From an uncultured Bacilli bacterium (GTDB lineage: Bacteria > Bacillota_I > Bacilli_A > RF39 > UBA660): a stretch of DNA of 38,396 bases. Location: the NCBI GenBank assembly GCA_947628485.1, contig CANRAA010000006.1:1-38396 (forward strand), written 5' to 3'. Shown here in pieces: positions 6,587-20,452 of the stretch (its first letter is position 1; each line of letters starts with the position of its first letter). A program made the translations under genes and the position numbers. The notes beneath the pieces are model-generated. The model had not been told where the DNA came from. It made no database searches and was given only the letters and a program-made list of their open reading frames with translations.

Positions 6587-6611
6587 CATAACATCACGTT
6601 ATGTTTTTTAT
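6587..6611 (+). terminator. Rho-independent terminator after uppP
   Basis: AACATAAC-ATCAC-GTTATGTT followed by a T-rich tract. Confidence 0.6.
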
Positions 6612-7499
6612 TTGCTTAAGTAAACAACTTGTTACAAATTGATCTTCCAAAATATTGATGCAAAAAGTTTTATAACCAATTCTGTTTATAGAAGAACCAC
6701 AGTGATAGATGGTATTATCATCTAATATAAAATACCTATCATGAAAACTATTATTGAATATTACTTTTAAATTATGATATTGTTTGTTATATTTCTCAAT
6801 GTCTTGTTTAGTTAATAAATTATTTGATTTAGTTATTATTACAACATCAATGTTATCTAATCTTTTTATGATATCTAAAACACTATTATCGGCATAACCA
6901 TCTATTATAATTAATTTGTTCTTTGCAAGTTTAAATATATCCTGTATTTTAGAATAAGCATCCCATATTTGTCCATCATAATATATTTCATTTACTTTTT
7001 TATTTTCTTTAAAACTGTCAAAAGACTCTTTTAACATCTTTATATCTTCTGTATTTTTACTTATATTTTCTGCATTGATATACACTTGATTATTTATATT
7101 TTTTTGTTCTATTAAATTATTAGAAATATATTTATGCATTATAACGAAGGCTTTCATTATGGCCACACTAACTTTTGAAGCAACCTCAGTTTTTAATACT
7201 GTGGCAAGCATTGCTACTCCTTGTTCTGTAAATACATAAGGATTATATCTACGACCTCCTTTTATTATTGAGGTTTCAAAATGGAACCTCAAATTTTCAT
7301 ATTCACTATTTGTTAATTGAAAGTAAAAATCACTTGGAAATTTATCTATATTTCTTTTTACAGCTTGATTTATGGTTTTTGAACCATTAGCACATTTATA
7401 TAATTCAGCCAAATCACTATCAAGCATTACTTGGACTCCTCTTATATTATAAATTTTATTTGTTATTTCATTTTCGCTTATTATTAAGTTATTCATCAT
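6594..7499 (-). CDS. ORF6N domain protein with PLD-like C-terminal domain (copy A)
   Basis: ORF6N signature 'IYNIRGVQVMLDSDLAELYKC..FTEQGVAMLATVLKTEVASKVSVAIMKAF'; C-terminal 'LIIIDGYADNSVL..FHDRYFILDDNTIYHCGSSIN' resembles HxKx4D..GSxN. SD 'GGAGGA' precedes ATG at 7499; the ORF-track start at 7559 would translate through the leader palindrome. Confidence 0.85.
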   Translation of the reverse strand: MMNNLIISENEITNKIYNIRGVQVMLDSDLAELYKCANGSKTINQAVKRNIDKFPSDFYFQLTNSEYENLRFHFETSIIKGGRRYNPYVFTEQGVAMLATVLKTEVASKVSVAIMKAFVIMHKYISNNLIEQKNINNQVYINAENISKNTEDIKMLKESFDSFKENKKVNEIYYDGQIWDAYSKIQDIFKLAKNKLIIIDGYADNSVLDIIKRLDNIDVVIITKSNNLLTKQDIEKYNKQYHNLKVIFNNSFHDRYFILDDNTIYHCGSSINRIGYKTFCINILEDQFVTSCLLKQIKNIT

Positions 7500-7520
7500 T
7501 TTTCCTCCAATCTTTTTCTT

Positions 7521-8417
7521 AAACTTGAGGTCAAAATATTTGACCTCAAGTTTAAACATTAATATTTTAATAAAATATAAGCATTAATATCTAACACTTA
7601 TTTTTAATTGTTACCGATATGTCAAGTATATTACACGAACTAATATTTGTCAACAACTTTTTGTAACATTTTTGTAAAAAACAATTTATTTGTTTTTTGA
7701 GGTCCCAAATTGGGACCTCAAAAGACATTTTTAACTTCAATTTGTAAGTTTTTATTAAAAAATTTTTATTAAAAAACTCACCATATTTGTATTTAAAATT
7801 AACTGGAAATGCCCATTTTAACTTATAATTTTTGGTGTTGATTAATTTTTAAAATCTACTTCAACTTCGACTTTTTTATTCATTGCTTTGAGGTCCCAAT
7901 TTGGGACCTCAAAGGATTAATTCTAAATTTAAAGAAAGAATTTACATAACTAATTTTATATCTAAGTTCGAAATTATCGACCTTAGAATTATAGATAATT
8001 CTAAATCAACTATTTTTAACTTGAAGTTTCAAATTGAAACTTCAAGTTTAATAAAGTATTCTTACTACTTAAATTATTAATTTGCGGTCGCATTTTGCGA
8101 CCACAAATTTTAAATATTATGTTGATAACTTTTAGTTTTAATTTGAAACCAAAAGATTAATTGTTTTTATTTTGCTTATATATTATTGTTCTTTAAGGTC
8201 AAAATTTTTGACCTTAAAAATATATTTATTAATAAAAGTTGTTATTAATTATTGGAAATCACAAATTGTGATGTTCAATTTTTATAAACGCAAAGACATT
8301 ATTATATTTGGTTATAACTTATATTTTTAATTCTAAGGTCGCAATTTGCGACCTTAGAAATTATTTTAAACTACAAAATTATTTTTCTCAACTTGAAGTC
8401 CCAAGTTGAGACTTCAA
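7521..8417. repeat. Palindrome array A (10 inverted repeats of 25-33 bp)
   Basis: 7521-7553 AAACTTGAGGTCAAA/ATA; 7695-7723 TTTTGAGGTCCCAA/A; 7886-7914 CTTTGAGGTCCCAA/T; 7961-7987 (decayed) TCTAAGTTCGA; 8018-8048 AACTTGAAGTTTCAA/A; 8081-8107 TTTGCGGTCGCA/TTT (1 mismatch); 8192-8218 TTTAAGGTCAAAA/T; 8251-8279 ATTGGAAATCACAA/A (2 mismatches); 8331-8359 TTCTAAGGTCGCAA/T; 8393-8417 TTGAAGTCCCAA/G (1 mismatch). Arm/centre shown. Confidence 0.92.
7625..7653 (-). promoter_or_regulatory. Sigma70-type promoter for ORF6N-PLD copy A
   Basis: Minus strand TTGACA-N17-TATACT; same promoter present in copy B. Confidence 0.8.
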
Positions 8418-8466: not shown

Positions 8467-9318
8467 TTATTTTCCATCTACTTCATATTCGTCTAAAAAT
8501 GATGTATACTTACCATCTTTCTTATAACCTAATATACAATTCATATTAATGTTATTAAGGGCGGTAAAAATATTGTTATCAATATTCTTTCTTTCTTTTC
8601 TTAAACTATTTATTAAGTTTTTCATAGCTTGTCTTCTTCCTATATCGTCACTATTTTCTTCTATACTACATTTTTCAAGTAAGGGACAAGCACAATTAAT
8701 GAAAGACAGACCATTATAATCTCGCCAAGCTTTAATAGCAGTTTCTTTAACTAAATATAATGGCCTTATTAATTCTAATCCTTTAAAGTTATCACTATGA
8801 AGTTTGGGCATCATAGTTTTAACCTCAGCCCCATAAAACATTGATAAAAGAGTGGTTTCAATAACATCATCAAAATGATGCCCCAAGGCAATCTTGTTGC
8901 AGCCTAATTCTTCTGCTTTACCATATAAATGTCCCCTTCGCATCCTCGCACATAAATAACAAGGATTTTCTTGATTTAACTTTTGAGCAATCTCAAAAAC
9001 ATCACTTTTAAACATTTCCAAAGGAATATTCATAATTTTAGCATTCTCTTTAATTTTTTCTTCATTTACTTTATTGTATCCTGGGTTCATTGTAACATAA
9101 TGTACATTAAATTTAATATTCCCATGTTTTTGTAATTCCTCAATACATTTAGCGAGTAAAAAGGAGTCTTTACCGCCACTTATACAAACCATAATATTGT
9201 CATTTTCTTCAATTAATTTATAATCATTGATGGCTTTAACAAAATTATGCCATATATCTTTCCGAAATTTCTTAATAATACTTCTTTCTATTTCTTGATA
9301 TTTTTCCATTATGTTCAC
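8467..9318 (-). CDS. TtcA-like PP-loop ATPase (tRNA 2-thiocytidine biosynthesis-type)
   Basis: PP-loop 'CISGGKDS', 'CYLCARMRRG', 'ALGHHFDDVIETTLL'. Confidence 0.75.
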   Translation of the reverse strand: MNIMEKYQEIERSIIKKFRKDIWHNFVKAINDYKLIEENDNIMVCISGGKDSFLLAKCIEELQKHGNIKFNVHYVTMNPGYNKVNEEKIKENAKIMNIPLEMFKSDVFEIAQKLNQENPCYLCARMRRGHLYGKAEELGCNKIALGHHFDDVIETTLLSMFYGAEVKTMMPKLHSDNFKGLELIRPLYLVKETAIKAWRDYNGLSFINCACPLLEKCSIEENSDDIGRRQAMKNLINSLRKERKNIDNNIFTALNNINMNCILGYKKDGKYTSFLDEYEVDGK

Positions 9319-9964: not shown

Positions 9965-9987
9965 CAAGGTCACAAAATGTGACCTTG
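9965..9987. repeat. Solitary palindrome of the same class as arrays A and B
   Basis: CAAGGTCACA-AAA-TGTGACCTTG, GTC-N9-GAC geometry, between convergent genes. Confidence 0.85.
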
Positions 9988-12217: not shown

Positions 12218-13129
12218 TTATTTAATACTTTTTACGTTGTCTATTAAACTTTTTATAACAAACTTATCTTCTAACTTATTAATACTAAAAGTTTTATTTC
12301 CTAAATGATTTAGGGAAGAACCACAATGATAGATTATTTTATTATCTAGTATTATATATCTATCATGAAAGGTATCATTATATTTAACTTCTAAATTATT
12401 ATATTGTTTATTATATTTTTCAATATCAATATTTTTTAATAAGCCATTACTTTTACATATTAATAATACTTTTACTTTTATATCTCTTATCATATCTAAA
12501 ATACTTTTATCAGCATAATTATCTATTATAACAACACTTTCTTTAGCTTCCTTTAAAATATCTACTATTTTAGAATATGCATCATATATTTGGCCATTAA
12601 AATATATTTCATTTACTTTTTTATTTTCTTTAAAACTTTCAAAAGACTCTTTTAATACTTTTATATCTTCTGTATTTTTACTTATATTTTCAGCATTAAT
12701 GTACACTTGATTATTTATATATCTTTGTTCATATAAATTATTTGATATATACCTTCTCATTAAAACAAAAGCGTCCATAATAGCAACACTAACTTTAGAT
12801 GCAACTTCGGTTTTTAAAATTGTTGCAAGCATAGCTACGCCTTCTTCAGTAAATACTCTTATATTATATCTTCTTCCACCATAATTATTTGGTTTTAAAT
12901 TAGAACTCTTAATTTGATACATCAAGTCTTCTTTTTCTTCTTGCGTTAACAAAAAACAAAATCTATCTGGAAATTTACTAGCATTTCTATTGACTGCTTG
13001 ATTTATTTCTTTAGTTCCATTCTTACATTGATAAAGGTCTGCTAAATCACTATCAAGCATTACTTGAACTCCTCTTACATCATAAATTTTATTTGTTATT
13101 TCATTTTCCTTTACTACTAAGTTATTCAT
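12218..13129 (-). CDS. ORF6N domain protein with PLD-like C-terminal domain (copy B)
   Basis: Close paralogue of copy A; 'HDRYIILDNKIIYHCGSSLNHLG'; SD AGGAGG upstream of ATG at 13129. Confidence 0.85.
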   Translation of the reverse strand: MNNLVVKENEITNKIYDVRGVQVMLDSDLADLYQCKNGTKEINQAVNRNASKFPDRFCFLLTQEEKEDLMYQIKSSNLKPNNYGGRRYNIRVFTEEGVAMLATILKTEVASKVSVAIMDAFVLMRRYISNNLYEQRYINNQVYINAENISKNTEDIKVLKESFESFKENKKVNEIYFNGQIYDAYSKIVDILKEAKESVVIIDNYADKSILDMIRDIKVKVLLICKSNGLLKNIDIEKYNKQYNNLEVKYNDTFHDRYIILDNKIIYHCGSSLNHLGNKTFSINKLEDKFVIKSLIDNVKSIK

Positions 13130-13154: not shown

Positions 13155-13912
13155 TTGAAGTTCCAAAATGGAACTTCAAATTTAAACATTAATAATTTAA
13201 TAAAAATATAAGCATTAATTTTTAACACTTATTTTAATTGTTATCGATATATCAAGTATATTACACGAACTAATATTTGTCAATGACTTTTGTAACATTT
13301 TTGCAAATTGCACTCTTATTTGTTATTTGTGGTTCCAAAATGGAATCGCAATTTATCATATTATTTTTATCGTTTTCTAAGGTCACAAAATGTGACCTTA
13401 GAATTTATGATTTTTAAATAGATTTTTTATAAAAATTGTATTTATTCGATTTCCAACTTGAGGTCACAGATTGTGACCTCAAGTTTTATTTTCAAATTTA
13501 ATTTATAATTTTTTTAATTTAAAAATAGTCAAAAAAATATTTCAATCATTTATTAAAAGAGTTGAAAATCCCCATTTCACCTTATATTTTTTAATGTTTA
13601 TTGAATTTAAAACAATTTTTAATTATTTATTTTTTTTATCAACTTGAGGTCACAATCTGTGACCTCAAGTTTTACATTTCTATCTTAATTTATTTTTTTG
13701 GTCGCAAATTGCGACTAAAAAATTTCTTCATTTAATATTAATTTTTTACCATAAAAATTATATAAATAATCCTATTATTATGATAATTTTTTGGCATAAG
13801 TATGGGGAAAATTGCATATAGGTTATCATCAACTTGAGGTCACAATCTGTGACCTCAAGTTTTATTTTTCTATCTTAATTTATTTTTTTGGTCGCAAATT
13901 GCGACCAAAAAA
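13155..13912. repeat. Palindrome array B (8 inverted repeats of 25-31 bp)
   Basis: 13155-13179 TTGAAGTTCCA/AAA; 13325-13353 ATTTGTGGTTCCA/AAA (2 mismatches); 13375-13403 TTCTAAGGTCACA/AAA; 13455-13485 AACTTGAGGTCACA/GAT; 13641-13671 AACTTGAGGTCACA/ATC; 13695-13721 TTTTTGGTCGCAA/A (1 mismatch); 13831-13861 identical to 13641-13671; 13884-13912 TTTTTTGGTCGCAA/A. Confidence 0.92.
13255..13283 (-). promoter_or_regulatory. Sigma70-type promoter for ORF6N-PLD copy B
   Basis: Minus strand TTGACA-N17-TATACT, with spacer sequence identical to copy A. Confidence 0.8.
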
Positions 13913-20159: not shown

Positions 20160-20452
20160 AAAAAAAATAACTATTCTGATAAAATAGTTACCTTAGTTTA
20201 AATAACTTCTCCGCGTAATTTAAAATTACTCTCCATAATTTTAAATATTAACTAAATATTATCAGTATTTAGTGCAGATAGCTTATCTTTAGAGTTTTCT
20301 TTCTCTTAAAACAATTGTCTTTACTTAGCGTAGATAAGATTATTATTACATAATTTATTTACTAATTAAATATATCTTTCACACATAGCAACATTACTAT
20401 AATACATAATAACTACTAACTATGACTACTAAATATATTATTCTTACTAAGT
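20160..20452 (-). ncRNA. Candidate structured ncRNA or long leader upstream of the flippase gene
   Basis: Minus-strand promoter TTGACA (20482-20487)-N17-TATAAT (20459-20464); hairpin terminator AACTATTTT-atcag-AATAGTT plus T8 at 20160-20190; internal hairpins (ATTTAAAATTA-tggagag-TAATTTTAAAT, CTAAATA-ctgataa-TATTTAG); no ORF. Confidence 0.6.

Follow-up and report, generated by a model that had tools for sequence, protein, structure and literature searches.

Repressors of phages and bacteria are known to autoregulate through palindromic operators, and some operators lie within genes, such as lacO2 and galOI. REP palindromes, which occur with RAYT, are clustered near one gene family. Genes encoding the ORF6N domain are widespread in bacteria, archaea and phages, and the domain is rarely mentioned in the literature searched. 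In that literature, whose scope left out most subscription journals, no report of an ORF6N palindrome, of palindrome sequences or of a binding code was found, and a sequence search for a solved ORF6N structure found none.

The window analyzed here, a stretch of 38,396 nucleotides from an uncultured Bacilli bacterium, contains two genes, here named A and B, that are assigned by sequence to the ORF6N family (PF10543), with scores of 112.3 and 95.9 bits against a curated cut-off of 27.8 (E=1.3e-32 for gene A). Each gene is accompanied by an array of palindromes, and both in-gene and adjacent palindromes were compared with those of ORF6N genes from other genomes, the cross-species data being drawn from draft MAGs.

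Palindrome arrays beside two ORF6N genes

Array A (7519-8417) lies upstream of gene A, between that gene and a PP-loop ATPase gene (8467-9318), and contains eight intact or near-intact palindromes and three decayed copies (Table 1). With arms of at least 10 and one mismatch allowed, the finder returned nine palindromes in 7521-8417, against an average of 0.28, and never more than 2, in dinucleotide shuffles (n = 200), which bears out the cluster described in a sequence-only reading of this interval. The divergent arms described there were confirmed in that some positions do differ, but the arms are not unrelated: they follow a position-by-position consensus (family D1), with the common skeleton TTnRR-T-nnn-AA-n-TT-nnn-A-YYnAA, whose n and R/Y positions vary in pairs between palindromes while the others are fixed. 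The palindrome at 7961-7987 is indeed visibly decaying, as had been proposed, and its counterpart is intact in the homologous array on contig C37. The second palindrome reported to overlap it, AGAATTAT-AG-ATAATTCT (7985-8002), exists, but as a short hairpin rich in A+T; it lacks the family skeleton and was taken as incidental. No match to Rfam covariance models was found in array A; the sole match in the window was a PGK RNA (RF03040) at 20252-20345 on the minus strand (82.9 bits).

Table 1. Positions of the ORF6N genes, their predicted functional parts and the associated palindromes in the window.
Positions	Strand	Feature	Remarks
6594..7499	-	Gene A: ORF6N domain (winged HTH), helical linker, PLD-like C-terminal domain	HxRx4D...GSS
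7245..7259	-	Gene A wing codons GGRRY	Residues 81-85; correlate with outer arm bases
7268..7292		Gene A in-gene palindrome, decayed	Not the predicted cognate type; codes LRFHFETS
7353..7382	-	Gene A predicted recognition helix codons SKTINQAVKR	Residues 40-49
7519..7555		Array A palindrome, CAA/GAGG	Between gene A promoter and ribosome-binding site
7625..7653	-	Gene A promoter-like site TTGACA-17-TATACT	In block conserved between paralogs
7695..7723		Array A palindrome, CCC/GAGG	First of two predicted cognate sites of gene A
7886..7914		Array A palindrome, CCC/GAGG	Second of two predicted cognate sites of gene A
7961..7987		Decayed palindrome, CGA/AAGG	2 mismatches in 13
8018..8048		Array A palindrome, TTC/GAAG	
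8079..8109		Array A palindrome, CGC, outer arms GCGG/GTGG	One paired mismatch besides centre
8129..8155		Decayed palindrome, resembling TTC/TTGG	Approximate ends
8192..8218		Array A palindrome, CAA/AAGG	
8253..8277		Decayed palindrome, CAC core TCACAAATTGTGA	Approximate ends
8331..8359		Array A palindrome, CGC/AAGG	
8393..8417		Array A palindrome, CCC/GAAG	One mismatch
9965..9987		Single palindrome, same design, CAC/AAGG	Between the two ORF6N loci
12218..13129	-	Gene B: second ORF6N/PLD-like gene	Recognition helix TKEINQAVNR
13155..13179		Array B palindrome, TCC/GAAG	Adjoins ribosome-binding site
13375..13403		Array B palindrome, CAC/AAGG	
13455..13485		Array B palindrome, CAC/GAGG	First of three predicted cognate sites of gene B
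13641..13671		Array B palindrome, CAC/GAGG	Second of three predicted cognate sites of gene B
13694..13722		Array B palindrome, CGC/TTGG	One mismatch
13831..13861		Array B palindrome, CAC/GAGG	Third of three predicted cognate sites of gene B; 190-bp tandem duplicate
13884..13912		Array B palindrome, CGC/TTGG	

A similar array, B (13155-13912), lies beside gene B, and contigs C34 and C37 of the same genome carry two more ORF6N genes, each with an array. Across the whole assembly, symmetric copies of the motif were detected only at these four ORF6N loci and at the single site between the two loci of the window. Among the relatives, the motif is rare in genomes without an ORF6N gene and palindrome counts follow ORF6N genes. 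One genome with no ORF6N match (G032) carried two motif copies on one short contig. Motif palindromes with no detected ORF6N domain, some of them near contig ends, were seen on G032:C78 (L372), G030:C38/C106 and G010:C32, where the ORF6N gene was possibly cut off by the assembly. A different palindrome family (TTCAACTGTCCGGTAAAATCGGACAGTTGAA, AGTTGGTGACGAAATGTCACCAACT), without the ORF6N skeleton, was observed at L056, L057, L091, L092, L060 and L065, upstream of two-domain ORF6N genes.

The AlphaFold2 model of the gene A product (pLDDT 84) places K41, T42, Q45 and R49, which are its code residues (see below), along a single face of helix 40-49, which forms the second helix of an HTH, while the residues encoded by the in-gene palindrome and GGRRY fall in a low-confidence wing loop. 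Foldseek assigned a PLD fold to the model. The PLD-like domain of genes A and B has an invariant GSS and an invariant HDRx4D, in which Arg replaces the Lys of the PLD-superfamily enzyme motif HxKx4D; the enzyme motif itself is absent.

In-gene palindromes and a residue-base code

A perfect palindrome with arms of 11-19 bp occupies the position of the gene A in-gene copy in nearly all ORF6N genes of the relatives. Of 301 ORF6N domains, 211 had an in-gene palindrome that beat all 100 synonymous-codon randomizations, and 248 had one at p<=0.05; the remaining ~18% had no significant palindrome, some being degraded and some having none. Ordinary genes were used as controls because the Rha and BRO-N genes, meant as negatives, showed the same phenomenon; four of 237 ordinary segments were positive, two of which were stray ORF6N genes (leaving about 2/235). 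The in-gene palindromes span more than 15 phyla, archaea, CPR and phages, with G+C from 0.25 to 0.70. The named loci are from Bacteroidota, Bacilli, Clostridia, Pseudomonadota, Nitrospirae, Verrucomicrobia, Elusimicrobia, Methylomirabilota (G+C 0.70), CPR bacteria, a Nanoarchaeota bin and phage contigs. Site counts made with a loose pattern in other phyla were too noisy for counting and were set aside.

The place of the palindrome is fixed in the wing-loop codons, mostly 14-26 codons before FTEQG, and short ORF6N proteins without the PLD-like domain carry the same palindromes. In about 20 genes it is read in a different frame and encodes an unrelated peptide (FLVTDCDQK, ELVTNCDRF), which indicates that the DNA is kept and not the peptide. 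The LRSQxVTS peptide was accordingly dropped as the conserved entity, and the LRSQ..TS pattern is an apparent protein conservation that is largely a DNA constraint. One ORF6N gene, L356 (G594:C285), contains three tandem motifs of the palindrome type (LKTQSATSNPG LKSQNGTSNPS LRSQSVTANLA).

When arm positions are numbered outward from the centre and residues by profile column, A occupies position 2 in 249 of 253 palindromes and T occupies position 6 in 248 of the 253. Covariation between the variable bases and residues encoded in other parts of the gene, far from the palindrome, is almost deterministic. Arm positions 4/5 follow residue 39, with A/C for Q (103/104), T/T for L (18/18), G/C for E, C/T for K and C/G for R; position 3 follows residue 43 (C for R in 213/214, A for N), and position 7 tracks residue 35. 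The outer positions 8-10 track the wing, GGRRY going with GAGG, G(H/N)xKYL with AAGG, GGVRK with GAAG, SRTL with GCGG and RGGKYK with TTGG, although this outer code is weaker than the inner one. The pairings resemble the familiar protein-DNA contacts Gln-A, Asn-A and Arg-G, and the covariation of site bases with recognition residues is that expected of a dyad operator.

Kinship does not explain the code, since prediction holds with training proteins less than 55% identical: for arm position 4, the code columns were correct in 90%, against 43% for a majority guess and 17% for all other columns. The code was also transferred across reading frames (20/21), to the genus when trained outside it (55/58), and to phages (25/29), Bacteroidota (23/25) and Pseudomonadota (26/28).

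Most members of the family have an in-gene palindrome of their own predicted type. Genes A and B are exceptions, both having lost the cognate in-gene copy, and no in-gene palindrome is found in gene B. Their cognate palindromes are adjacent to the genes: the predicted type of gene A, CCC/GAGG, has exactly two copies in array A, with no other perfect copy found in the assembly, and that of gene B, CAC/GAGG, has three in array B. The first cognate site of gene A is located ~55 bp upstream of the -35 hexamer. The gene A domain would be predicted to prefer GAGGTCCCAAnTTGGGACCTC over CAC, TTC and scrambled versions, and the gene B domain to prefer GAGGTCACAAnTTGTGACCTC, whereas the change Q45L (with T42S) in gene A would shift its preference towards the TTC-type GAGGTTTCAAnTTGAAACCTC. 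Cognate palindromes were seen ~186-191 bp apart in three arrays (7709/7900; 13470/13656/13846; L047 4109/4298), and one pair or more in array B arose as a tandem duplicate.

Among the genes of the genus that lack a cognate in-gene site and have flanking palindromes, the exact predicted type was present in five of nine, against 0.63 expected and none of 2000 shuffles. Beyond the genus, the cognate site lay just upstream of the start codon in six (L186, L223, L243, L247, L211 and L135) of about nine genes of this kind. The flanking sites of L109, L224 and L075, the first two from outside the genus, were not of the predicted type.

Paired changes and their possible causes

Homologous palindromes of paralogous arrays showed 168 paired arm differences where ~20 were expected, and 129 single-arm differences where ~277 were expected; the expectation comes from the conserved flanks (12.8% divergent), and the comparisons overlap, so that these counts are descriptive. 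Such paired substitutions were what the sequence-only reading had named as evidence that would support active rewriting or mobility. They are abundant, but the amino acids of the neighbouring DNA-binding protein determine which bases appear, and selection to keep the site recognizable to a symmetric protein dimer accounts for the pairing.

Gene B and its counterpart in G020 (L047) are 88.5% identical and have the helices EINQAVNR and SINLAVSR; the change from Q to L is accompanied by a switch of both homologous cognate palindromes from CAC to TTC, while the adjoining non-cognate palindrome TTTTTTGGTCGCAAATTGCGACCAAAAAA is nearly unchanged. The genes on C34 and G027:C7 (L043 and L096) share 97% identity, and within their first 300 bases the differences are essentially confined to one patch over the recognition-helix codons, silent changes included. 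This patch suggests that the recognition helix was replaced as a block, apparently by micro gene conversion; the old type is kept at the in-gene site and the new type is already in the array. Decayed sites, site-type switches and this apparent replacement show that the turnover that had been suggested is real. In some palindromes of the L042-L096 arrays (e.g. L047 site 2 and L096 site 3) the half-sites are of different types, e.g. TTGAAGTCACAAATTGGAACTTCAA, which would represent hybrid or intermediate states.

Mobile or self-propagating palindromic elements, like REP/RAYT or the Rickettsia palindromic elements (RPE), inserted between and inside genes, could account for the many copies, for in-gene copies in more than one reading frame, for the three tandem copies in L356 and for palindrome counts that follow ORF6N genes; as with REP, the palindromes are clustered near one gene family. 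However, no transposase is present here, and the symmetric bases are predicted by amino acids of the recognition helix encoded elsewhere in the gene. The in-gene position is fixed, array positions are conserved between paralogs with mainly the arm bases changing, and in this genome there is no dispersal beyond the ORF6N loci and the one site between two of them, so that mobility is very unlikely and the earlier interpretation of the palindromes as a whole is only partly supported. Quasipalindrome correction is a known mutational process, and hairpin template switching without selection on sequence would fit perfect arms of up to 20 bp with variable extension, but it leaves unexplained the coupling of residues to bases, the invariant T6 and A2, and the same codons being used across phyla. 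We consider it highly improbable as the main source of the paired changes, although it may be the mutational route to them. A role as transcription terminators or RNA-level hairpins is scarcely credible: four array palindromes score as terminator-like and one near-perfect palindrome lies in the presumed 5' leader of gene A, but these scores arise from the palindromes themselves, which are symmetric DNA with no consistent T tract. Rather than a stem and T tract at gene ends, most sites are upstream of or inside the gene, including its coding sequence; their mismatches are often A-C rather than G-U (by reading, with no formal count), and their bases track the predicted DNA-binding helix.

The PLD fold of the long ORF6N forms, with invariant HxRx4D/GSS residues, could also indicate a nuclease for which the palindromes are target or protection sites, as in homing or gene drive. 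Little credence can be given to this reading, given that an invariant Arg stands in place of the motif Lys, that short proteins without the PLD-like domain have the same palindromes, and that the gene would cut itself. Finally, the arrays could form a cross-regulatory or exclusion network, in which ORF6N proteins of other elements, phages or strains control the gene through their own operators. In the genus, 80 of the 92 array palindromes are not cognate to the adjacent gene; these sites are mostly intact, and their types are largely encoded elsewhere in the genus. Of the 92, 80 have types that are represented among the ORF6N proteins or in-gene sites of the genus, as a network would predict. 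Against it, the non-cognate palindromes matched other ORF6N proteins of the same genome 7 times, with 7.5 expected, and cross-regulation by paralogs within one genome was rejected for this lack of excess. A network is on the whole rather unlikely, and is compatible with the operator explanation favoured here, as a role for the non-cognate sites.

Proposed self-carried operators and their relation to known regulators

It was established computationally that the in-gene palindromes are conserved, that residues and bases follow a code, where the cognate sites lie and that paired co-evolution takes place, and the palindromes are very probably operators of ORF6N proteins, which co-evolve with the protein and are carried in or beside its own gene. 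In this explanation, ORF6N proteins are predicted to act on the palindromes as winged-helix-turn-helix dimers. The skeleton bases (A2, T6) would be common to all family members. Residues 35, 36, 39 and 43, which share one face of the recognition helix, would read the variable inner triplet, and the wing (GGRRY and variants) would read the outer bases. The operator would typically be located within the wing-loop codons or just upstream of the start codon. We infer from this arrangement dimer binding and autoregulation of the gene, most likely by repression. Since each ORF6N gene carries its own operator, protein and operator would travel and evolve together, and an intragenic operator would free control from whichever promoter the mobile gene lands behind. 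In genes A and B the cognate operators would sit in the arrays, the in-gene copies being lost or decaying. For the non-cognate array palindromes we favour operators of past or alternative specificities, which would allow a switch without losing control.

The in-gene sites supply thousands of natural protein-operator pairs, making the specificity of an unstudied family readable from sequence and open to direct testing, and are a potential set of orthogonal repressor-operator pairs. They also raise the evolutionary question of how a protein and its DNA site change jointly in the same or adjoining bases.

Rha genes (PF09669; L392-L413, L452-L531) contain in-gene palindromes with an AATT core, in which the residue after H-x in GKxHx[NDR]VL, in the predicted helix, predicts arm position 5 in 44/44 (N-T 17, D-G 20 and R-A 7, a hand tally with many close relatives). 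Rha, a second family, follows a rule of the same kind as ORF6N. Strong in-gene palindromes were also found in six of 27 BRO-N genes (PF02498), at several different positions; BRO-N loci noted were L438, L439, L440 and L450. It is possible, if somewhat short of probable, that an operator carried in the codons of the DNA-binding domain is general in regulators of the phage type, among them ORF6N, Rha and probably BRO-N, together with a modular helix-plus-wing code readable from sequence, arrays that serve as operator reservoirs for specificity switches, and switching by block replacement of the recognition helix.

Among known systems, CRISPR and other direct-repeat arrays have near-identical direct repeats and unique spacers, neither of which was found in array A; instead, its repeats differ by paired changes and its spacers, of 30-190 bp, are conserved between paralogs. 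The whole gene A model matches TrmBL2 (5bpd, E 1.8e-5), and the combination of a winged HTH with a PLD-like domain suggests a likeness to TrmB/TrmBL2, although no detectable sequence relation was shown and ORF6N proteins also occur without the PLD-like domain. Membership in PF10543 relates genes A and B to the ORF6N/BRO-N/KilA-N/Rha phage regulator domains. The predicted features resemble those of autoregulatory repressors, with an HTH dimer, a dyad operator at its own gene and specificity determined by recognition-helix residues. The proposed ORF6N operator differs from theirs in that it usually lies inside the coding sequence of its own DNA-binding domain, at an in-gene site that many phyla have kept although its bases change along with the protein.
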